Shown here: one piece after another, positions 411 through 61,810 of the stretch | Layout of the letters: every line of letters begins with the position of its first letter | How positions within the stretch are numbered: position 1 is the stretch's first letter | From: Bacteroidaceae bacterium | GTDB lineage: Bacteria > Bacteroidota > Bacteroidia > Bacteroidales > Bacteroidaceae | Assembly (NCBI GenBank): GCA_017466065.1 | Contig: JAFTUV010000034.1 | Coordinates: 1 to 64,000 of the forward strand | DNA: 64,000 nucleotides | Reading direction: 5' to 3' | The notes under the pieces: model-generated | The model's input: only the letters and a program-made list of their open reading frames with translations | Databases searched by the model: none | Told to the model about the DNA's origin: nothing | Made by a program: the position numbers and the translations under genes

Positions 411-3400
411 TTAGAACTTTATGCAGTTGAGGTTCTTGTCGACAATTACGCCGTCGGTGGCTTTAAGATTGAACTTGATGTTCTTCTTTGCTTTTAGGGT
501 GATTGTCGCAATTTCAACATCGCCGTTGAGTGTAGGCTGGTCGGCCACGTTCACGAATGTGGGGTAAACAACTGTTGCACCGTTGCCGTGCAAACGGTTC
601 TTTGTGTAGTTGTTCATATTGGCGGTGTCAACAGCCTTCATTGTAACATACTCATAGTCGTTGCTGTTGTAGGGTATTGCAAGGCCCACTGCGTTTACGT
701 TGGCAAGGCCGGTGCCCTTGATGGTGATTGTAACCTCTTCGCCGGCTTTGTAGCTCTTCTTGTCGGATGCGATGGCGATTGTGCCGGCAACCATCTGTGC
801 GGGGTTGGCGTATGCTCCGTCGTCGATGCGTGTGGCTGCAACCGAAATGTCGTATGCGTCGATGAGGCCGTTCTCGTTCATATCTCCTATGCTCACATAT
901 TCAAAGTCGCTGTCGCTGCTGCGCAAGCCTGTGTAGTTCATATAGGATGTGAGGTCGTTCTCGTCAACCTTTTTGTCCTTGTTAATGTCGCCGGGAAGGA
1001 ATGTCTCGGTGCCGGGAACCTTGAAGATGTACATTTCGCGGCCCGAACCGAAGTTACCCACAGCCTCGCTCACGTGAATCTTTACGAAGCGTGCCTTGGG
1101 GTTACCCTCGAAGGTAAATACCTTTGTGTCGGGTGTGCGCTCCCATTTGACGGCAACAGGCTCGCTCCAATTCTCCTTGTTGGTGCTGTAACTAATCTGT
1201 GCGCCTGTGATTGTGCCGTTTCCGCCATCCTCGCGGCCCAGATAGTGCAACTTGTCGAGTGTGCTCATTCCGTTGAGGTCGATAATCATATCAAACGGTA
1301 CTGAATTCTCGCCATAGGCTGTGTGCCAGATGTTGCCCTCCTCAAAGTCGAACAGACGGTCGGGGCCTTGTCCGCCTTGGTTGCGGCAGGTTGTTGTTGC
1401 CGAGAGGCCTGTGAGGGCAAATTCGAGCGGGTTGCTCTTTGTTGTGCTCTCAACTGCTGCCCACTCCGATGTTCCGCTCTTGTTCACGGCGCGTACGTTG
1501 AACTTGTAGGTTGTTTCGGGCTTCAAGTCCTCGAACAACAGCTCGCAGTTCTTTATGGTTGTGTAGTTGCGGCCCTCGAATTCTATTTCGTAGTAGTCGG
1601 CACCGGCAACCTTCTCCCAAGAGGGAGTGAGGGTGTAGGGTTGGCAATTCTCGTCGGTTACTGTGGCAACGGGAGCCTCCAATGTGCCCTCTGTCTTTAA
1701 ATAGGTGTTGGGGGTGTCGAATTTGTAGCCCTTCACGGTGAGTGTGGTGGCTGCGGCTGTAACATCGCTCTTGGCGAGTTTCACCATAACCACGGGGTTC
1801 TTTATAATTTCCACTTTTGCAAATTCACTGCCCTCGGTGGCGAAGCGGTTGAGGTTGGGGGCTGCGTCGTAGAAATATACATTCTCGCTCTTCTCGAACT
1901 CTTCCATCGAAGATACTTTGGCGAGTTTCACGCTCTTCTTGCCTATTTTTGCCGAAACGCTCTTGGGTGCTTCGCTCACATTTACCTTGAAGATTGTTGC
2001 CTTCTCCTTAACAAAGCCGTCGAAATTGCCGGTTGTGGGGGCAATGGTTATTGTGGCTGTGCCCTTGCTGTTGCAAGCCGATGTTATTTTTGTTTCGGTG
2101 AAGTGTCCTGCACGGTAGAGCTCTGTTGTTCCGTCGTCGTCATACTCGGTGAACGATGTTTCGCCGGCGGGGTACAATTCATACATACGCAGGCCTTTGT
2201 CGACCTGTGCTGGTGTGTTGTGAGGAGTGGTAACGGGGATAATGGCTCCTGCCTTCACAAAGAGGGGGAGTTTCCACAGAGGTGCGTCGAAGTTGTTTAC
2301 AATGCAGTTTCCGCTGTATTTCTCGCCTGTGAAATAATCTATCCAAGTGCCCTCGGGCAGATAGATGCCGTTGCGAATGTCGTTGCCGTCCTTGTCCATT
2401 GCAGTCTCCTGATAGATGGGGGCTACAAGGAAGTAGGGGCCATAGAGGAATTGGTAGCGTGTTGCGCTGCCCAAGGTATATTCGTTGGGGTAGTCGAGGA
2501 ACATTGCGCGTATCATAGGCTTGCCGTTGATAGCCTCGCGTGCGATGCTGTATGCGTAGGGCATAATCTCGGCCTTCATTTTCAGGTAGCTGCGGTTGAT
2601 GGATTCTGCGGGGTCGCCGAATACGTGGGGATATTTCTGGCTCGAACCCCAACCGTCCATATTGAGCATCATAGGTGTGTAGGCTTTCCACTGGAATTCT
2701 CGAATGTTGACAGGAATGTTGCTGCCACCGAAAATACCATCAACATCCGAAGTGATGTTAGGCTGTCCGGAAAGGCCCGAACCGATGTATGTGGGTATGT
2801 GGAAACGAATGTACTCCCATTCGCCGCCACTCTGGTCGCCTGTCCATATTCCGGCGTAGCGTTGTGTGCCTGCCCAGCCGTCTACCGAGATGATGAAGGG
2901 GCGTGCGTTGTTGCCGTAGTAGGTCATAATCTGTGCAACATCGGTTACACCGTTGAGGCCGAACGAGTAGCCGGCACCCACCCACGCAACGTCGGTTTTA
3001 AGGACGCGCACACCTGCGTCGCGCACCTCCTTGACAATGTCGCGTTGCAAAATTGCATTAACGCCCTCGCGGGGGTAGAGGTTCGACTCGGTCCACAAGC
3101 CAACCTCCACGCCTTTGCTGTGTGCATAGTCGCCGAATTCTTTAAGGTTCTGTATGTTGCCGTCGATAGTCTCGGTCTGTCCGTAACCTGCACCGTAACC
3201 GTCGTTGGGAAGAATCCAACCGAGGGGCATATCGTTGTCCAGATAGCGGTCGATAACCGCGCGTGCCGAGAATTGATACTGCTCTTTGCCGAACTCTCCG
3301 TTGAGCGACTCTTTTAAGCCACCGTTGTCTGTCTGGCTCTCTTTGTAGCGTTTGCCGTCCTCATACACAAAGCCACTCTCGGCATTCTCTTTCCAATAGT

Positions 3401-55266: not shown

Positions 55267-55839
55267 TTATCTCTTTTGAATAAAATCCTTTACTTTTTTT
55301 AATTCATTCCACTCGGCCAATTTATAACACCCATTCTTGTCGTACCATTCCTCAATGTCACATATTTCGGATATTATAGATTCGATATTGTCGGTTGAAC
55401 CTTCTGATAGTGATGCGTTAATCTCTCGCAGACGAGCCAATTTGGCCTCACGTGAAGATGTCCCGGTCCCAGTGTCGGCTGATGCAGTAACATCGTGGTT
55501 GAAAAATTCGACAATGGTTGCCGAGGCGGTCAATGTCTTTTTTATAATAATTCCTAAAAAGAATTTATAAGTTGTTTTGATGCGAATGTCTGCCAAAGCC
55601 TGATAGGGTTGCAATTGTGCTTCTGTTATCAATATTTCTACAACATCGGCATTCTCTTTCTGTGACAGGCCGCCAACTATTCCCAAGAAATAAAAAGCCG
55701 AAGTGCTTGCGCTGACCTGTCTGATGAATTTAAAATTACCTTGGTTTATTGCAACCGTTTGCGGTGTTGAAATAGAGGTTGAGCCTATGCAAGAAGATAG
55801 TAATATCGCTGAAATTACGATTAGAAGATGTTTTTTCAT
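55267..55839 (-). CDS. Putative lipoprotein of unknown function
   Basis: The 190-residue protein has lipobox signal MKKHLLIVISAILLSSC. A conserved-looking region NQGNFKFIRQVSASTSAFYFLGIVGGLSQKENADVVE follows, then a beta/alpha pattern and a charged helical C-terminus (EEWYDKNGCYKLAEWNELKKVKDFIQKR). It resembles small Bacteroidetes lipoproteins of the DUF6567 type, uncertainly. GAGGAAA lies before the ATG; further upstream a 13-bp unit is directly repeated (55855-55867, 55871-55883). Confidence 0.65.
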   Translation of the reverse strand: MKKHLLIVISAILLSSCIGSTSISTPQTVAINQGNFKFIRQVSASTSAFYFLGIVGGLSQKENADVVEILITEAQLQPYQALADIRIKTTYKFFLGIIIKKTLTASATIVEFFNHDVTASADTGTGTSSREAKLARLREINASLSEGSTDNIESIISEICDIEEWYDKNGCYKLAEWNELKKVKDFIQKR

Positions 55840-55908
55840 TGTATTTCCTCAAAATTTTACGTTGAGCCCTTTTTACGTTGAGCTCAACTGTGCTGTTCTT
55901 GTAAAAAT

Positions 55909-55954
55909 AAAACGGAGAGAATTTTTCAACTCTCTCCGATTCTGTACCCCAGAC
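55909..55954. repeat. attL of the integrated element
   Basis: Positions 55909-55949 match 60921-60961 at 37 of 41 bases, ending in the shared core GTACCC (55944-55949). The left part is chromosomal and forms a hairpin with GAAA loop on the minus strand (arms around 55914-55938), the presumed original tRNA-Leu terminator. The right part from 55950 belongs to the element. Confidence 0.7.
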
Positions 55955-56102
55955 AAAAGTTTTCTCGAAAGAATTTTTAGAGGATTTGGAAAAGATTTGG
56001 GAGTTACGCCACTTTATTCCTGACCCTACAAAACTTGAATATGCCAACTGTGATTGCGCTCCTTGTTCACGCTACAAGGGAGAAATCTTACAAGGTTGGT
56101 AA
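55950..56102 (+). pseudogene. Detached 3' end of the large serine recombinase gene
   Basis: From the att core GTA CCC, in the same codon phase as in the recombinase at the other end, 50 codons stay open (QTKVFSKEFLEDLEKIWE ... CDCAPCSRYKGEILQGW) and stop with TAA at 56100-56102. No start is available at this end: an in-frame TAA lies at 55908-55910. A plus-strand terminator follows 26 nt later. In a circular form these codons would complete the recombinase to about 557 residues. Not a decayed gene but, by inference, a reversible split. Confidence 0.65.
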
Positions 56103-56128
56103 TGGTATCAAATAGCAAAATTGCACTT

Positions 56129-56153
56129 ACACCCCCTCGTGGGGTGTTTTTAT
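56129..56153 (+). terminator. Terminator after the detached recombinase tail
   Basis: ACACCCC (56129-56135) pairs with GGGGTGT (56141-56147) followed by TTTTTAT. In the integrated state no complete plus-strand gene precedes it, supporting the view that it ends the recombinase gene of the circular form. Confidence 0.8.
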
Positions 56154-56216
56154 CTATGTAACCCCTATCGCTTATTACAAAACCATTTATAGTAGTATAG
56201 GTAAAACAGTTTTTCG

Positions 56217-56232
56217 TTTTTTGTACAAAAAA
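56217..56232. repeat. 16-bp perfect palindrome upstream of the rep region
   Basis: Six T, GTAC and six A form a perfect palindrome in the very AT-rich leader of the replication genes. It could be an operator or part of an origin; no iterons are clear. Confidence 0.4.
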
Positions 56233-56319
56233 TATTTTTCAAAAAAGTTACTTACTATTTACTCTTTTTCTACTTATGCTACTATTTATATATAAATAAC
56301 AATATAAAATTTAATAATC

Positions 56320-56514
56320 ATGCGTAAATATCGTGAATTAAAAGATGATACCAAACAGCGTATCAGTCAATCCCTAAAAGGGCGTGGTTTAACAGACAGC
56401 CACAAACAAGCCATCAGCGATGGCATCAGGGCATATTGGAGTACAATCCCCAATAAGCCCAACAATGAAAATAACGAGAGTAAAAACCTTTTTAATGATG
56501 AAAAGAGTATGTAA
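56320..56514 (+). CDS. Small NUMOD3-like protein
   Basis: The 64-residue protein has one NUMOD3-type helix-turn motif (DTKQRISQSLKGRGLTDSHKQAISDGIRAYW), known as a DNA-binding add-on of homing endonucleases. It has no nuclease domain. It precedes and overlaps the rep frame, so it may act as an accessory of replication or as its regulator. Function unknown. Confidence 0.6.
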   Translation: MRKYRELKDDTKQRISQSLKGRGLTDSHKQAISDGIRAYWSTIPNKPNNENNESKNLFNDEKSM

Positions 56515-57385
56515 AAGACCTGTAATAATTGACGCTTTTACTGTTTGCTGTGAAGTGGGAAACAGTGTTTTATTCAACAAGATTGCTTCACTCGAATTTG
56601 GCGAGAGCATAGAATTTGAAGATTTTACCTTAACCCGTATAGATGGGCGTTACTACAATTATGTAAACACTATTACCTACAACGACTGTGGAGAAATCAA
56701 AACCTTTGGACAGTTGAAATTTGGTCTTAATAATGGTAATGGTGAGGCCCACGACAATGGAAAACCAAAGGCATGGATAACGGTTGATAACACCGCTCTC
56801 TATTCACAAGCAATATGCTATTTAGGTTATATCTGCGAGATACTTCATTTGAATGTGCATAACTTTACAAGCATAGACCTTTGCAAAGACACACCTTTTG
56901 ATGTCAGTCGTGCTTTGCATAGGTTGTATAGAAATAAGAGCATAACAACCATTCTTAATGGCAAGCGCATCATACATCGTGATGAGGATAGACCCGAAAT
57001 TTCAAGGACTTTAAGCGGAAGCCTCAACAAAGACAAATACCAAACCATCTATGTAAAACAGCGTAACGCCATTAGGGATAAGTCTGCTGGAGTTACCCTT
57101 AAAACATACGATAAACTTGCAGAGATTCGGAACGCCTCTGAAAAGGAGTATATCCTCGACTATTACAATAACCCTACAAAACTCTATCGTACAGAGGTGC
57201 ATTTAAACAACGCTGAAATAAAAGAGTATCTACAATCCCATAATATCGACCTCAACCCATATATGATGGACAACAGTGTTCTTGAAGCAATGTTTTTCGA
57301 CTATCTTAATCGTGTTATACGCTTTCAAGATGGCAAGGAGCAAATAACTTGGGAGCAACTGTTGGGTGGCAGAACTACCGCTTGA
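56498..57385 (+). CDS. Putative phage/plasmid replication initiation protein
   Basis: The protein has about 295 residues from ATG 56498 (MKRVCKRPVIIDAFTV); ATGs at 56465 and 56420 are in frame, and the overlap with the preceding gene makes the start uncertain. Segments AGVTLKTYDKLAEIRNASEKEYILDYYNNPTKLYRTEVHLNN resemble the C-terminal half of filamentous-phage/plasmid II/X-type or Rep_trans initiators, in which Tyr residues nick DNA. It would replicate the excised circle. A terminator follows. Confidence 0.65.
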   Translation: MKRVCKRPVIIDAFTVCCEVGNSVLFNKIASLEFGESIEFEDFTLTRIDGRYYNYVNTITYNDCGEIKTFGQLKFGLNNGNGEAHDNGKPKAWITVDNTALYSQAICYLGYICEILHLNVHNFTSIDLCKDTPFDVSRALHRLYRNKSITTILNGKRIIHRDEDRPEISRTLSGSLNKDKYQTIYVKQRNAIRDKSAGVTLKTYDKLAEIRNASEKEYILDYYNNPTKLYRTEVHLNNAEIKEYLQSHNIDLNPYMMDNSVLEAMFFDYLNRVIRFQDGKEQITWEQLLGGRTTA

Positions 57386-57467
57386 TAGGTGTATAACAAC
57401 CCCCTCTGTCAATATCTATATATTTGATGTAACATGTTATAAACTAACATATCTGTATCAAATTAAA

Positions 57468-57515
57468 AATGTATCAAAGTAATCTTATAAATGACTACCT
57501 TGATACATTCTTTTT
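57468..57515 (+). terminator. Terminator downstream of the rep gene
   Basis: The 14-bp arms at 57468-57481 and 57496-57509 with one mismatch are followed by CTTTTTG. The gap 57386-57592 is otherwise AT-rich with no gene seen. Confidence 0.7.
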
Positions 57516-57592
57516 GTATTATTCTAATCTAAAAGATTTGATTGATATATAGATAAGAGATTTTACTTTCCTCATAAATATATGATAGGTTA

Positions 57593-58009
57593 TTACTCTT
57601 GTTTTGTTTTTTGTATAAAATATGTGGTAATGTCTATATCGTTTATATTTGAGTTATATAGATAATATCTATTTTCTAAACATTTAATTCTTATATAATG
57701 GTAGCTTTGTTTCTCATTATAATCAGTATGTGGTGCATATTCTAATAATAACAATATGGGTAATATTATGATACCATTATGTGCAACTGTAAATGACACC
57801 TTATTTACTCCACGATTATACATATCTATTATATGAAACGAGTACCAATAAATACCGCTACCATCAAAATCCTTTGAATTCTTAAAATATACTATTTCGC
57901 CATTTTCCGTTTTATATATATTTCTTCTGTCTATTTTGTTTATGGGTTTTTCCCCATCTGGAAATAGTGTGCATATTTGAGCAAAATTTAGATATTCGTT
58001 CTTTGCCAT
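57593..58009 (-). CDS. Unknown protein encoded in the element
   Basis: The 138-residue protein is not recognised. It is rich in aromatic and Asn/Ile residues, with EYLNFAQICTLFPDGEKPINKIDRRNIYKTENGEIVYFKNSKDFDG at the start and a core IILPILLLLEYAPHTDYNEKQSYHYIRIK followed by YYLYNSNINDIDITTYFI. No signal peptide. It lies 40 nt downstream of the XRE gene on the same strand, so the two probably form an operon. Strong AT bias matches the element, not the chromosome. Confidence 0.6.
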   Translation of the reverse strand: MAKNEYLNFAQICTLFPDGEKPINKIDRRNIYKTENGEIVYFKNSKDFDGSGIYWYSFHIIDMYNRGVNKVSFTVAHNGIIILPILLLLEYAPHTDYNEKQSYHYIRIKCLENRYYLYNSNINDIDITTYFIQKTKQE

Positions 58010-58049
58010 TTTGATATGTATTATATTACATTATTAACTCCAATAATAT

Positions 58050-58343
58050 TTATCGCTTGCAATTTAGCAAATTTTCCAATTCACTCCTACTATTGAATTG
58101 ATATATCTTTCCTCTAATCTTAATAAACCCCTCTACAGCCTCATCGCCCATAGGTTCAAAAAGGGATTTTACACTAACACCCAAAGCAACTGCCATTTTC
58201 TCGATGGTATCTAACCTTGCATTGCCATACATCGCTCTCGTTAGACTTGAAGCGTCAATATCCATGTCGCTTGCAAGGTCTTTAAGTTGCTTGCCTTGTT
58301 GCTTGCAAAGGCGTTTTACATTTTCTGCCAATATCTTTTCCAT
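58050..58343 (-). CDS. XRE family helix-turn-helix regulator
   Basis: The 97-residue protein has an HTH_3 domain at about 5-63 (NVKRLCKQQGKQLKDLASDMDIDASSLTRAMYGNARLDTIEKMAVALGVSVKSLF) and a short C-terminal extension. It is divergent from the small recombinase gene across a 160-nt AT-rich region and is a natural candidate to repress recombinase expression. Confidence 0.85.
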   Translation of the reverse strand: MEKILAENVKRLCKQQGKQLKDLASDMDIDASSLTRAMYGNARLDTIEKMAVALGVSVKSLFEPMGDEAVEGFIKIRGKIYQFNSRSELENLLNCKR

Positions 58344-58429
58344 ATCTATCCTATTTTGGGTGCTAATATACTAAAATTATCATAAATAACAATATATTTC
58401 AAAATATTTGCGATTTTCGCTAATTAAAA

Positions 58430-58461
58430 TTTGTTTCTTAATTTTCTTAAATGTATATTTG
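58430..58461 (+). promoter_or_regulatory. Promoter of the recombinase genes
   Basis: TTTG (58430-58433), a 20-nt spacer and TATATTTG (58454-58461) match the host consensus. It lies between the divergent XRE and small recombinase genes and could be a target of the regulator. Confidence 0.75.
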
Positions 58462-58503
58462 CATTGTAATAATTGATTTATAAAACAAATCTATAATAAG
58501 AAT

Positions 58504-59127
58504 ATGAAAACAATAATTTTTGCAAGAGTTTCGACAAACATACAAGAGTACGACAGACAAGTAAACGAATTGACAACACTTGCCAATAGTAAGGGTTGGA
58601 GCGTTGAGGCTGTGTTTGCAGAGAAAATTTCGGGTGCAAAGGCAAACGCAGAGCGTAGCGAGTTGCTTAATATGGTCGCTTATGTAGAGGCAAATGCCAT
58701 TGATAAGGTGCTTGTTACTGAACTCTCTCGCTTGGGGCGTGATACCTTGCAAGTGCTTGAGGTTATAGAAATGCTGAACAGCAAGGGTATTTCGCTGTAT
58801 ATACAGAACTATAACATCGAAACACTGACAGCAGAGGGCAAGGTAAACCCAATGAGCCAATTCCTTATTACAATACTAGCGGAGGTGGCAAGAATGGAGC
58901 GCAAGACCATTCGTGAGCGTGTAGCGAGTGGTTATGCCAACTATCGTAATAATGGTGGCAAGGTGGGTAGAAAGCAAGGGTATCGCAAGAGCGAAGAGAC
59001 AATGCGTGAGGAGTACAGCGAAGTTTTTAAGTTGCTGAAAAAGGGCATTAGCCTCCGTAACATCAGCAAGATAACTAATGTGAGTGTAAATACTATAAGA
59101 AAATGTAAGGAGAGTGTAAGCGTATGA
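58504..59127 (+). CDS. Small serine recombinase (resolvase/invertase)
   Basis: The 207-residue protein has the catalytic Ser in IIFARVST, the LVTELSRLGRD and AEVARMERKTIRERVASGYA motifs of the resolvase domain, and a C-terminal HTH (LLKKGISLRNISKITNVSVNTIRKC). It may resolve multimers, or invert DNA, or assist integration. A second, larger serine recombinase lies downstream. Confidence 0.9.
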   Translation: MKTIIFARVSTNIQEYDRQVNELTTLANSKGWSVEAVFAEKISGAKANAERSELLNMVAYVEANAIDKVLVTELSRLGRDTLQVLEVIEMLNSKGISLYIQNYNIETLTAEGKVNPMSQFLITILAEVARMERKTIRERVASGYANYRNNGGKVGRKQGYRKSEETMREEYSEVFKLLKKGISLRNISKITNVSVNTIRKCKESVSV

Positions 59128-59297
59128 GGTAGAATGTAAGCAAGCCCACTGTATAAGGCAAGTAGGTAAATGGCATACCGAAAGGTTGTAATTAGGTTTT
59201 TAATCTTCCTTGTTGTAAGATTTTTTATTACAGTTCAGTGGGTAAAAACCAAAAAATAAGCCACAGAGTGCTGTGGCAAGGAAAATTTTGAATTTTA
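59128..59297 (+). other. Spacer with hairpins before the 46-codon ORF
   Basis: GCCACAG/CTGTGGC (59260-59277) forms a 7-bp hairpin with a 4-nt loop. AATCTT/AAGATT near 59199-59219 followed by TTTTTATT is a weak terminator candidate for the small recombinase gene. No gene seen. Confidence 0.4.
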
Positions 59298-59438
59298 ATG
59301 ATAAGTTTAGATGTATGTAAACGAATTTTAGGAAACAACGACAATGAAGAAGTTAAGATGATTAGAGAGTACCTTTATCTGTTGGCAACTCTCCAAATCG
59401 AATGTGAAAATAATGTTGAAAATCAAATTTTAGATTAG
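59298..59438 (+). CDS. 46-residue ORF preceding the large recombinase
   Basis: ATG at 59298 opens MISLDVCKRILGNNDNEEVK and ends ...ENQILD with TAG at 59436-59438, only 2 nt before the recombinase ATG. It is acidic and helical by composition. The tight spacing implies coupled translation. Small proteins in this position can be directionality factors or recombinase regulators; no homology is recognised. Confidence 0.55.
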   Translation: MISLDVCKRILGNNDNEEVKMIREYLYLLATLQIECENNVENQILD

Positions 59439-59440
59439 TT

Positions 59441-60961
59441 ATGAGAGTGATATTGTATTGTAGAGTAAGTAGTGATGAGCAAGCAGATGGTACAAGTCTT
59501 GATTTTCAAGAAAAGACTTTGCGCTCATATTGTGAGCGTATGAATTATGAGGTTATACATTGCTGTAGAGAGGACTTTTCAGCGAAACACCACGATTTTC
59601 ACCGTCCACAAATGCAGTGGTTGAGAGATTACTGCCGTAAGCATAAGCGTGAGGTGGATATGATACTGTTCTTGCGTTGGGATAGGTTCAGTCGTAACAC
59701 AGAGTTCGCTCATGTTTTCAAGCGTGTGTTTATGGATGAAATGGGGATAAAGTTCAATGCTGTTGAAAATCCCATTGACTTTGAAGCAACAGAGTGGAGT
59801 ACTCTTTTCAACCTATATGCAGGTATAGCGCAGACAGAGAACAACAAGATTTCTCGTAGAACTCGTGATGGTATAAGGGAAACGCTTCTCAAAGGCAAGT
59901 GTGCAAACAAAGCCCCAAGAGGTTATAAGAATGTCCGTTCAAGCAAGCACGATACCCATATTGAGATTGATGAAACAGTTGCTCCGCTCATAAGGAAACT
60001 GTTTACAGAGGTTGCAAAAGGTATTGAAACGCCTAACTACATCCGTAGGAAATATGCGAAAAAGTTTTCCGAAAGTTCGTATTTTGCGATGTTGAGAAAT
60101 CCTTTCTACATAGGTAAGATAAGAGTTCCAGCATATAAAGATGAACCCGAGAGGTTGGTTGATGGCGTACACGAACCTCTAATTGATGAAACTATATATA
60201 ATAAGGTACAAGATGTTCTTGATGGTAAGAGGCGTAAAGCGCCTAAATTATCCAAACCTCAAGACCCTATGCTGTTCTTGCGTAAGTTCCTCATTTGCCC
60301 CATCTGTGGGCATTGCCTCACGGGTGCTACAAGCAAGGGGAATGGTGGTAAGTACACCTATTATTTTTGCTGTAATGACAGTAAACATATAAGGGTAAGG
60401 GCAGAAAGAGTAAACGACACTTTTGTTCATTACTTGTCTGTTTTGAAACCCTATGACACTGTTCTTGACCTCTATAAGGAGATTTTGAACGATATAAGGA
60501 AAGAGGATAGAGTGGAGCAGACAAGGCGTACAGAACGCCTTAAAAGCGAATTGAACACTGTTATCAAGCGTATGGATAGTGTTCAAGACAAATATATTGA
60601 TGGAGAACTCGACAAGGTGTCTTATAATAGACTGATGGAGAGGTATTCCAATGAGGCAGAAAGTCTAAAAGAGCGTATCGCTCTTGTGGAAACCCCTAAC
60701 AATGTCAAGGTCGAACCAAAGTTGGGGTATGCTATCTCCTTGATAAGTAATATAGATAGGTTTATTCTAGATGCTCCCGTTTCGCTTAAAATAAAGTTGC
60801 TTGGTTCGATGTTTCCTCAAAAAATAGAGTTTGACGGAAATAAATATCGAACCAATGAATATAACAAGGTGCTTGATTTAATATATCAGCAAACCAATGA
60901 GTTACGGGTGGGTAAAAAAGAAAACGGAGAGAGTTTTTCAACTTTCTCCGTTTCAGTACCC
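59441..60961 (+). CDS. Large serine recombinase, 3' end removed by integration
   Basis: The element encodes 507 codons: resolvase domain (1-150, catalytic Ser in ILYCRVSSDEQADG), recombinase domain (about 160-270, APRGYKNVRS to NPFYIGKIRVP), zinc ribbon (CPICGHCLTGATSKG and FCCNDSKH, about 285-325), a coiled coil (about 350-425) and a C-terminal segment. There is no stop before the att core (60956-60961): the frame continues across antisense tRNA-Leu and into rplM to 61810. The presumed natural tail of 50 codons lies at 55950-56102. It would catalyse attP x attB integration. Confidence 0.88.
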
Positions 60962-60966
60962 AGACC
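60921..60966. repeat. attR of the integrated element
   Basis: Matches attL at 37 of 41 bases and ends at the tRNA-Leu 3' end. On the minus strand it forms GGAGAAAGTT-GAAA-AACTCTCTCC (one mismatch) followed by GTTTTCTTTTTT, a terminator for tRNA-Leu that is now supplied by the element. Confidence 0.7.
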
Positions 60967-61038
60967 CGGGATCGAACCGGGATGGGTTGCCCCACTGGTG
61001 TTTGAGACCAGCGCGTCTACCGATTCCGCCATCTGGGC
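60957..61038 (-). tRNA. tRNA-Leu(CAA)
   Basis: The minus strand reads GCCCAGA...TCTGGGT with anticodon loop CTCAAAC (anticodon CAA), a long variable arm (TGGGGCAACCCA) and T-arm GGTTCGATCC. CCA is not encoded. The gene is intact after integration because the crossover falls at its 3' end. Confidence 0.95.
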
Positions 61039-61061
61039 AATTGTCTTTCTCAATTGCGATG

Positions 61062-61092
61062 CAAAGGTAATGCTTTTTGTTTACTGCGCAAA
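61062..61092 (-). promoter_or_regulatory. Promoter of tRNA-Leu
   Basis: On the minus strand TTTG (61092-61089), 19 nt and TACCTTTG (61069-61062) match the consensus. Confidence 0.8.
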
Positions 61093-61129
61093 GAAAAATG
61101 TACTTTTTTTGAAAAAAAGTTTCAATTGC

Positions 61130-61160
61130 TTGCCTATCTCGTTGAAAAAAAGTAATTTTG
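61130..61160 (+). promoter_or_regulatory. Promoter of the rplM operon
   Basis: TTG (61130-61132), 20 nt and TAATTTTG (61153-61160) fit the consensus. Transcription would start near 61167. Confidence 0.75.
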
Positions 61161-61166
61161 CAGGCC

Positions 61167-61348
61167 GATTATTATCAGCCCGTGAATCGGGCAGTCGATA
61201 CTTCCGGTCTCTGAGTTTGTTCGAAGGCTCGGTCCAGCCAACCGGGGGAGCAAGCGCGAAGAGGGTTTCTGCAAGGCCTAATTCCGTGAGGTTCAAGCAG
61301 AGAGGTGTCGAGGAAATGGAATTATTAACTATTTTAAAAGGAATTAAA
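61167..61348 (+). ncRNA. Structured leader of rplM (candidate L13 autoregulatory leader)
   Basis: The ~180-nt leader is clearly GC-richer than its flanks and contains complementary stretches (GCCCGTGAATCGGGC near 61178-61192; GAAGGCTCGGTCCAGCC region). Bacteroidia are reported to carry a ribosomal leader upstream of L13; I assign it by position and structure, without a covariance search. A ribosome binding site AAAAGGA precedes the GTG start. Confidence 0.55.
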
Positions 61349-61810
61349 GTGGATACTTTAAGCTACAAAACAATTTCAGTTAACAAGGCAACCGCTCAGA
61401 AAGAGTGGGTTGTTGTAGATGCAACAGACCAAGTAATTGGTCGTCTTGGCACAAAGGTTGCCAAACTTTTGAGAGGTAAGTACAAACCCAGTTTCACTCC
61501 TAACACAGACTGTGGCGATAACGTAATCATCATCAACGCAAGCAAGGTGAAGATGACCGGTAACAAGTGGACCGATCGCATTTATCTTCGTTTCTCGGGC
61601 TACCCCGGTGGTCAGAAACAGTTTAGCCCTGCCGATGTTGCCAAAGGTTACAAAGGTTATGAGCGCTTGGTAAAGCACGTTGTAAGAGGTATGCTTCCCA
61701 AGAATCGTCTTGGCGAGCACTTGCTTAACAACCTTTATATTTATGATGGCCCCGAGCACAACCACGCAGCTCAGCAGCCTAAAACAATCGATATTAACTC
61801 TTATAAATAA
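61349..61810 (+). CDS. rplM: 50S ribosomal protein L13
   Basis: The 153-residue protein starts at GTG 61349 (MDTLSYKTISVNKA), preceded at good distance by AAAAGGA. An ATG at 61316 is in frame but would add 11 non-conserved residues within the leader. L13 motifs EWVVVDATDQVIGRLGTKVAKLLRGK, NASKVKMTGNKW and RGMLPKNRLG are complete. It is in the same frame as the large recombinase of the upstream element, with no stop between them. Confidence 0.95.
   Translation: MDTLSYKTISVNKATAQKEWVVVDATDQVIGRLGTKVAKLLRGKYKPSFTPNTDCGDNVIIINASKVKMTGNKWTDRIYLRFSGYPGGQKQFSPADVAKGYKGYERLVKHVVRGMLPKNRLGEHLLNNLYIYDGPEHNHAAQQPKTIDINSYK

Follow-up and report, generated by a model that had tools for sequence, protein, structure and literature searches.

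An attachment site inside a large serine recombinase gene and the probable exchange of the enzyme's C-terminus on integration into tRNA genes of Bacteroidales

We analyzed a 64,000-nucleotide stretch of DNA from a Bacteroidaceae bacterium (assembly GCA_017466065.1, contig JAFTUV010000034.1, positions 1 to 64,000; hereafter the window) that contains a small integrative element of a kind that occurs in several groups of Bacteroidales. Two copies of the hexamer GTACCC, starting at 55944 and 60956, bound this 5,012-bp element (55944–60961). On its left lies a host gene with a Pfam match to DUF6567 (55267–55839, minus strand), on its right a tRNA-Leu gene (anticodon CAA, 60956–61038, minus strand) whose 3' end is the target, followed by the genes of ribosomal proteins L13, S9, and S2. 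From left to right, the element contains a tail of 50 codons, genes for a NUMOD3-like and a probable replication protein, a 138-residue open reading frame (ORF) and a helix-turn-helix (HTH) gene on the minus strand, and genes for a small serine resolvase and a large serine recombinase (LSR). An initial annotation of the window had placed the attachment (att) site inside the LSR gene and proposed that integration cuts this gene and exchanges the C-terminus of its product. Extended to related elements, the sequences make this arrangement highly probable.

The LSR gene starts at 59441 on the plus strand and reaches the right core (attR, 60956–60961, overlapping the tRNA 3' end) with no stop codon, i.e., GTA CCC are its codons 506 and 507. 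The frame then stays open for another 282 codons (60962–61810), antisense through the tRNA and in frame through the gene of ribosomal protein L13. LSR, antisense tRNA and L13 make up a single open frame of 789 codons (59441–61810). At the left end, the same hexamer (attL, 55944–55949) is followed, in the phase of the LSR, by 50 open codons on the plus strand and the stop codon TAA (55950–56102, with TAA at 56100–56102). This tail reads QTKVFSKEFLEDLEKIWELRHFIPDPTKLEYANCDCAPCSRYKGEILQGW and is predicted to complete the LSR gene at its 3' end when the element is a free circle. Upstream of the conserved tail Phe, as far back as the nearest in-frame stop, there is no ATG, GTG, or TTG. The positions given in the initial annotation for cores, phase, and frame hence all hold, as does its remark that no gene start precedes the tail, and the host-derived codons that it saw replacing the tail could be identified as the antisense of the target tRNA.

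LSR residues 1–491 are kept in one frame upstream of the core and hold all recognized domains, with matches above the gathering score to PF00239 (1.9e-23) and PF07508 (9.3e-10) and a match to the integrase family phrog_95 (1.1e-75). The zinc ribbon PF13408 scored below its cut-off of 25.3 bits in the window LSR (21.5 bits, E 0.0003) and above it in the LSR of a related locus, L014 (26.3 bits). Moreover, cysteines C286, C289, and C310 are invariant, and a structure model contains long helices at residues 339–417; we judge that the zinc ribbon and coiled coil of large serine recombinases are both present. The model (mean predicted local distance difference test score 72.5, below 50 for residues 444–491) is too weak at the C-terminal end to inform on the tail. 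The NCBIfam CcrB model gave 90.9 bits, far under its 900-bit cut-off. Phage_integr_3 (PF16795) had no match in the LSR, the domains of which are those of a serine recombinase.

We compared the phase of tail and LSR in all elements for which both ends were found on one contig (n = 24, including the window); L102, L103, L126, L129, L133, L134, L155, L157–L162, L164, and L165, each missing one end, were left out. We used a motif within the tail to fix its frame and homology to the window LSR to fix that of the LSR. Tail and LSR shared their phase across the core in 24/24 elements, and the shared phase is therefore not due to chance. Most telling are L099 and the elements with changed cores. In L099 both ends are in phase 2, compared with phase 0 in the others, and the tail follows the phase of its own LSR, not that of a neighboring window-type remnant. 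Changed cores are found in L098 (tRNA-Glu, GTAGC), L163 (tRNA-Leu CAG, GTGCCC), and L136 (tRNA-Asn, GCTCT), the last with an LSR only 35% identical to that of the window. A tRNA gene (Leu, Arg, Glu, or Asn) adjoins 18 of the 24 elements, the others being G250, L092, L097, L101, G817a, and L156; no tmRNA gene was called in the stretches of the 24. In 20 elements, the open LSR frame leading to the core is 480 codons long or longer; L092, G817a, and L154 have only the last codons, and in L097 the frame is split. From core to stop, the integrated frames extend over 11 to 284 codons.

L092 (1.71 kb), G817a in L128 (1.46 kb), and L154 (1.47 kb) are mini-elements with a tail end, last LSR codons, and both cores, without an LSR, and may be moved in trans by a full element. 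L092 holds two other ORFs of 204 and 244 residues, the longer being weakly DUF4145-like. L126 (G426) has two tails, at 3311 and 10338 and thus 7 kb apart, with cores GTACCT and GTATCT; no LSR was found in this stretch, which possibly represents an array of decayed elements.

The tails are constrained as protein in the frame of the LSR. Beyond the first three conserved codons, the ratio of nonsynonymous to synonymous variation (pN/pS) over 24 distinct tails was 0.30 in this frame, versus 0.87 and 1.65 in the other two, and third-position entropy was 1.34 versus 0.77 and 0.45; earlier statistics of this kind were based on a smaller set of 14 tails. A codon pattern as extreme arose in 1 of 100,000 column shuffles, with kinship remaining in this test. 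The first tail codons, FSN (TTCTCGAAC), are nearly invariant even at third positions, as would be expected if they double as a DNA motif. Tail length varies from 25 to 50 codons, and the residue pattern FLxDLxxIWxLR looks amphipathic by eye. Before the tail, 10 of 20 attL sites have no start codon, and the other ten have some ATG, GTG, or TTG. With start codons absent in the first ten and the codon constraint in the LSR frame, the tail gives the impression of a gene's 3' end that is separated from its front part, and the LSR would be its partner across the joint. It is kept as protein though apparently untranslated when integrated and should therefore matter in the free state, where the task is integration. 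In the window, the tail is followed by a terminator-like hairpin and a T-run (56129–56153, plus strand; −11.5 kcal/mol, 3 of 200 shuffles as stable), so that stop and terminator are both where the initial annotation had seen them.

The two ends share not just the 6-nt core; rather, they form a repeat of 47 nt with 89% identity (55903–55949 and 60915–60961). Its left copy comprises core and displaced tRNA terminator hairpin and could represent either the left attB half or a scar left by an older element. The first ~24 nt of the window tail contain the P' arm of attP with the motif TTCTCGAA. With offsets counted from the start of the core, a TCGAA-like motif stands at offset 21 of the element arm in 23/24 elements and at offset 16 of the target arm in 19/24, the other five having neither a match nor a tRNA there. 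In tRNAs, the target-arm motif is the T-arm (TCGAAC as attB' motif in the window tRNA-Leu), and so the tRNA dictates its distance, unlike that in the element arm. In serine integrases, the zinc-ribbon motif is 5 bp nearer to the center in attB than in attP (PMC3783163). The element family has this 5-bp shift, tested on one arm only, and therefore the left end fits a P' arm and the tRNA a B' arm. Going by sequence, the shared T-arm motif may explain the use of different tRNAs by one family. A symmetric binding motif in the P arm and a motif in the left half of attB were sought by eye, and none was made out. In 18 of 20 elements, the P arm, made up of the last LSR codons (60920–60955 in the window), folds into a terminator-like hairpin on the strand of the tRNA (in the window, the minus strand, with −17.1 kcal/mol and 0 of 200 shuffles as stable). 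One stretch of DNA hence seems to encode LSR residues, to form half of attP, and to be the terminator of the tRNA gene.

An empty site in a relative supports the insertion. In the element-free relative L065, a DUF6567 homologue (57% identical) stands beside tRNA-Leu, with a similar hairpin and the core between, and the window flanks 55607–55774 and 55898–55954 on the left and 60915–61181 on the right align to neighboring L065 sequence at 77–89%. We read 26 related tRNA-Leu/L13 loci by eye (L058–L083, of which L076 and L079 run into a contig end and are truncated or misread). In some of them the terminators are unrelated (e.g., L059–L061), others have the same hairpin without an LSR (e.g., L065, L067), and six have LSR 3'-end remnants (L058, L066, L068, L070, L074, L078). 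The last tens of LSR codons stand alone before the core in L034, L035 (identical with L066), L037 (L058), L042, L047 (L078), and L050, and also in L051, L052, L068, L070, and L074. The scar loci look as if the element's terminator hairpin had been retained after loss of the remainder. That scars beside tRNA-Leu might be cargo cassettes was considered and dropped; in L050 the bordering ISL3-type transposase explains the arrangement.

One tRNA can also be used serially, as in L099 (1238–1360) and L013 (1244–1471), where a second element lies beside a window-type LSR 3' remnant (98% identical). Three database ORFs (P0122–P0124) join an LSR end to a tail in frame, and short in-frame scars precede the tails of G817a and L154. 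Together with the empty site, the common phase, the codon constraint, and the distribution of the tail described below, the joints in P0122–P0124 back the initial claim that integration cuts the LSR gene and exchanges its C-terminus.

The LSR had 1,627 homologues, of which we listed the best 120 and read their C-terminal ends. An antisense tRNA-Leu peptide ends 47 of them. A regular expression found a core-like motif in 110, and nine of the ten without it seem, by eye, to run into other tRNA-like sequence; P0121 alone ends before the core. Recombinases of free elements that stop short of the core would speak against the exchange: no free element was found, and among the listed database proteins P0121 is the single case of this kind. 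A genome scan with the LSR gave 14 loci, and the tail had one match each in 12 of the 13 LSR-bearing genomes searched (of 14; L009, a 3.2-kb contig, was left out). Wider tail searches matched 38 of 399 genomes (query P0122, which also matches LSR ends), 11 of 398, 9 of 158, and 14 of 393; none of the listed matches lay in an open frame longer than 144 residues. The initial annotation would have been contradicted by tail homologues occurring only in unrelated genes. In the genomes they lie, wherever visible, at the left ends of such elements. In P0140 and P0141 the tail is fused to the element's own replication protein at DPTKLYRTEV; the tail and the replication gene of the window both contain CCCTACAAAACT, and the two fusions therefore look like deletion derivatives or assembly errors. 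Further matches in plasmids and phages were short only and mostly over the tRNA. LSR relatives occur in 132 and 439 plasmid and phage records, all with less than 60% identity; viral contigs gave one LSR relative (L027), and the other viral searches were empty.

Several observations weigh against an exchange of this kind. The uninterrupted recombinase ending in the tail, which the initial annotation led one to expect, did not appear: none of the 120 listed homologues has the tail behind the LSR, and the tail had no match in plasmids, phages, or IMG/VR. A search of the tail region in proteins of matching length, in which the query was read as 506 residues and region 455–504 was scored, leaving the last two tail residues outside, yielded one candidate and none that was scored, in a database clustered at 90% that may hide members. 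Moreover, the joints in P0122–P0124, G817a, and L154 begin in the last LSR codons and resemble fresh insertions next to the scar of an old element, not circles, and the LSR remnant before the tail of G250 has an in-frame stop. Past the first ~28 codons, the tails diverge in length and sequence, and a terminator follows the tail in only 2 of 20 elements, so that we rejected the terminator of the initial annotation as a conserved trait of the family. In L099, the TCGAA-like motif is at offset 22 instead of 21 and the neighboring LSR remnant is in another phase. Finally, the 24 elements are related and are not independent events, and many of the genomes are metagenome-assembled.

From the layout, the shared phase, the coding constraint, and the empty site, all seen in the sequences themselves, we propose the following scheme. 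In a free circle, the LSR gene would have attP near its 3' end and would run across GTACCC into a conserved, translated tail of ~25–50 codons that ends in a stop of its own. When the core recombines with a tRNA gene's 3' end, the tail would stay behind at the left end and the LSR would be joined to the antisense strand of the tRNA. The integrated enzyme would keep its catalytic, recombinase, and zinc-ribbon parts and have a different, site-dependent C-terminus, while its last codons before the core would also be an attP half and seemingly the replacement tRNA terminator. Excision would give the tail back to the LSR. Any role of the tail would then be limited to the free state, either in integration or in shutting the enzyme down once integrated. 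In a wider form of this scheme, the enzyme would encode its own state, i.e., the form with tail would be fit for attP × attB, the form with tRNA-derived residues would be of an excision type or silent, and the att site would be a directionality switch whose codons are also a tRNA terminator. We put this wider form forward tentatively, as somewhat less probable than even.

In the plainest alternative, attP merely overlaps the LSR 3' end in a compact arrangement without regulation; both C-termini would work equally, and the tail would mildly aid folding. This is possible, if on balance doubtful. It agrees with the recognized domains all preceding the core, with integrated C-ends that vary freely between 11 and 284 codons in the 24 elements, and with tails of 25 to 50 codons, and a trivial variable C-terminus is one reading given by the authors who described DsiB, a comparable recombinase discussed below (PMC3146451). 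However, the core of the tail is constrained as protein (pN/pS 0.30) though, on this view, untranslated when integrated and so must matter when the element is free. It is very improbable that the tail is a small gene in its own right or that it serves solely as DNA of the attP arm. The FSN codons TTCTCGAAC are conserved at the DNA level like a binding motif, gene callers report short ORFs there, and 10 of 20 attL sites have a start codon upstream. The other ten have none, though, and codon-like constraint extends well beyond the arm and in the LSR frame only, while the phase, L099 included, is that of the LSR in the same element. This explanation is hence disfavored by the start codons, the phase, and the codon statistics alike.

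Two further alternatives assign the exchange a function, and we consider each of them unlikely. Loss of the tail together with the gain of antisense codons might inactivate or destabilize the LSR and lock the element in place until an intact copy arrives. A conserved tail that is lost upon integration would fit this, as would the window frame running 282 codons past the core into L13 and the old LSR 3'-end scars and serial insertions at many loci; the same idea has been proposed for archaeal suicidal integrases and raised for DsiB. Yet the catalytic domain stays whole, unlike in SSV1, and in 20 of 24 elements the integrated LSR frame still has 480 or more open codons, which may mean that the integrated form is in use or only that insertion was recent. 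Alternatively, the form with tail might perform attP × attB and the tail-less form favor or permit attL × attR, without or beside a directionality factor. The exchange of the C-terminus coincides exactly with the change of substrate, and the tail would be selectable only where the substrate is attP × attB. Also, the amphipathic-looking tail would follow the zinc-ribbon/coiled-coil region, a regulator of recombination in other LSRs (PMC3783163). On the other hand, small conserved genes, HTH or NUMOD3-like, could encode a directionality factor, and some serine recombinases, such as TndX of Tn4451, are said to integrate and excise without one (PMC5704250), so a switch is not a necessity.

The small NUMOD3-like protein (56320–56514, plus strand) is a weak match and is conserved in the element backbone. 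The probable replication protein (56498–57385, plus strand) has no family match itself, and the occupants of its slot vary: Rep_trans in L013 (2011–2949, below cut-off) and Phage_CRI, filamentous-phage G2P-like, in L002 (4588–5586, above cut-off). This hints at rolling-circle replication of the free form. A 138-residue ORF without assigned function (57593–58009) and an HTH repressor-like protein (58050–58343) are encoded on the minus strand. The small serine resolvase/invertase (58504–59127, plus strand) is conserved beside the LSR, has relatives in most loci searched, and contains an HTH domain of its own (HTH_7, 27.0 bits, cut-off 23.8). Phage_integrase, the tyrosine integrase family, had no match among the nine window sequences scanned. 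In L002 and L010, tyrosine integrase genes come after the right end of the elements.

The closest known parallel is DsiB, a CcrB-like large serine recombinase of ~500 residues encoded by the ssrA islands of Dehalococcoides; its gene always overlaps att with its 3' end and finds a stop codon only outside the island (PMC3146451). These islands insert in the T-loop part of the tmRNA gene, may lie in tandem, and encode a smaller serine recombinase beside DsiB; the authors considered that full function of DsiB might require circularization of the element or a neighboring island that supplies the needed 3' fragment, the stop codon being unclear (PMC3146451). Going by that description, the present family resembles DsiB in the LSR 3' end overlapping att, the stop outside the element, the structured-RNA target, the small serine partner, and serial insertion. 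It differs in phylum and in its targets, tRNA-Leu, -Arg, -Glu, and -Asn instead of the tmRNA gene ssrA. The small partner has HTH_7, whereas a DNA-binding motif is said to be lacking in the Dehalococcoides protein (PMC3146451). Here, moreover, the 3' fragment is identified, conserved, and in phase; none with codon evidence is described for DsiB in the sections of that study available to us (PMC3146451). Suicidal (SSV-type) integrases of SSV1, pTN3, and pT26-2 have att inside their own gene and usually target tRNA genes, and a review calls recombinases that disrupt their own gene exclusively archaeal (PMC8371274). The present elements share with them the att site inside the integrase gene, the cutting of that gene on integration, and the tRNA targets. 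However, the archaeal enzymes are tyrosine recombinases in which Int(N) is cut from the catalytic Int(C), whereas here a bacterial serine enzyme would keep its catalytic domain whole and exchange its C-terminus. An att site in the recombinase's own gene is known from archaeal tyrosine enzymes, and for bacterial DsiB, which overlaps att, the idea of such an exchange was raised as speculation; what the present family adds is a tail that is conserved and that the data assign to the LSR gene.

In the integration-dependent immunity of mycobacteriophages, attP lies in the repressor gene, and integration alters the C-terminus of the protein and the decision circuit. In the present element, unlike in that system, the att site is in the LSR itself, and the HTH gene (58050–58343) is elsewhere. 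The target of the A118 integrase is comK, not a tRNA gene. The Listeria A118 and LI integrases share with the LSR the series Resolvase, Recombinase, zinc ribbon, and coiled coil and the attP motif lying 5 bp further out; an attP within coding sequence is not described in the available parts of these reports (PMC3783163, PMC3556126). Targets in tRNA genes are usually used by tyrosine integrases (Islander, PMC4383910). NBU1 and MTnPi4, two Bacteroidetes elements at tRNA-Leu, have tyrosine recombinases, as do all tRNA entries in the part considered here of a table of integrative mobilizable elements (PMC5704250). The present family resembles these two in its tRNA-Leu 3'-end target and differs in its serine recombinase and in having att in its own gene, which is not described for them in the portion of that work covered here (PMC5704250).

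A separate directionality factor is the usual explanation for the direction in which serine integrases act (PMC3783163). The family described here provides its enzyme in matched pairs that differ at the C-terminus according to the DNA state, and makes the question of direction directly testable. The DsiB speculation of 2011 (PMC3146451) becomes a concrete case, in that the 3' piece missing there exists here, is conserved, and keeps the frame. Together with DsiB, this LSR family speaks against the view that only archaea have recombinases that disrupt their own gene (PMC8371274). Our analysis also suggests how one family of serine integrases uses several tRNAs via their common T-arm, and it explains database proteins that end in antisense tRNA peptides. 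If the enzyme indeed encodes its own state, this, taken together with DsiB, could be a recurrent principle of bacterial serine integrases that target RNA genes.

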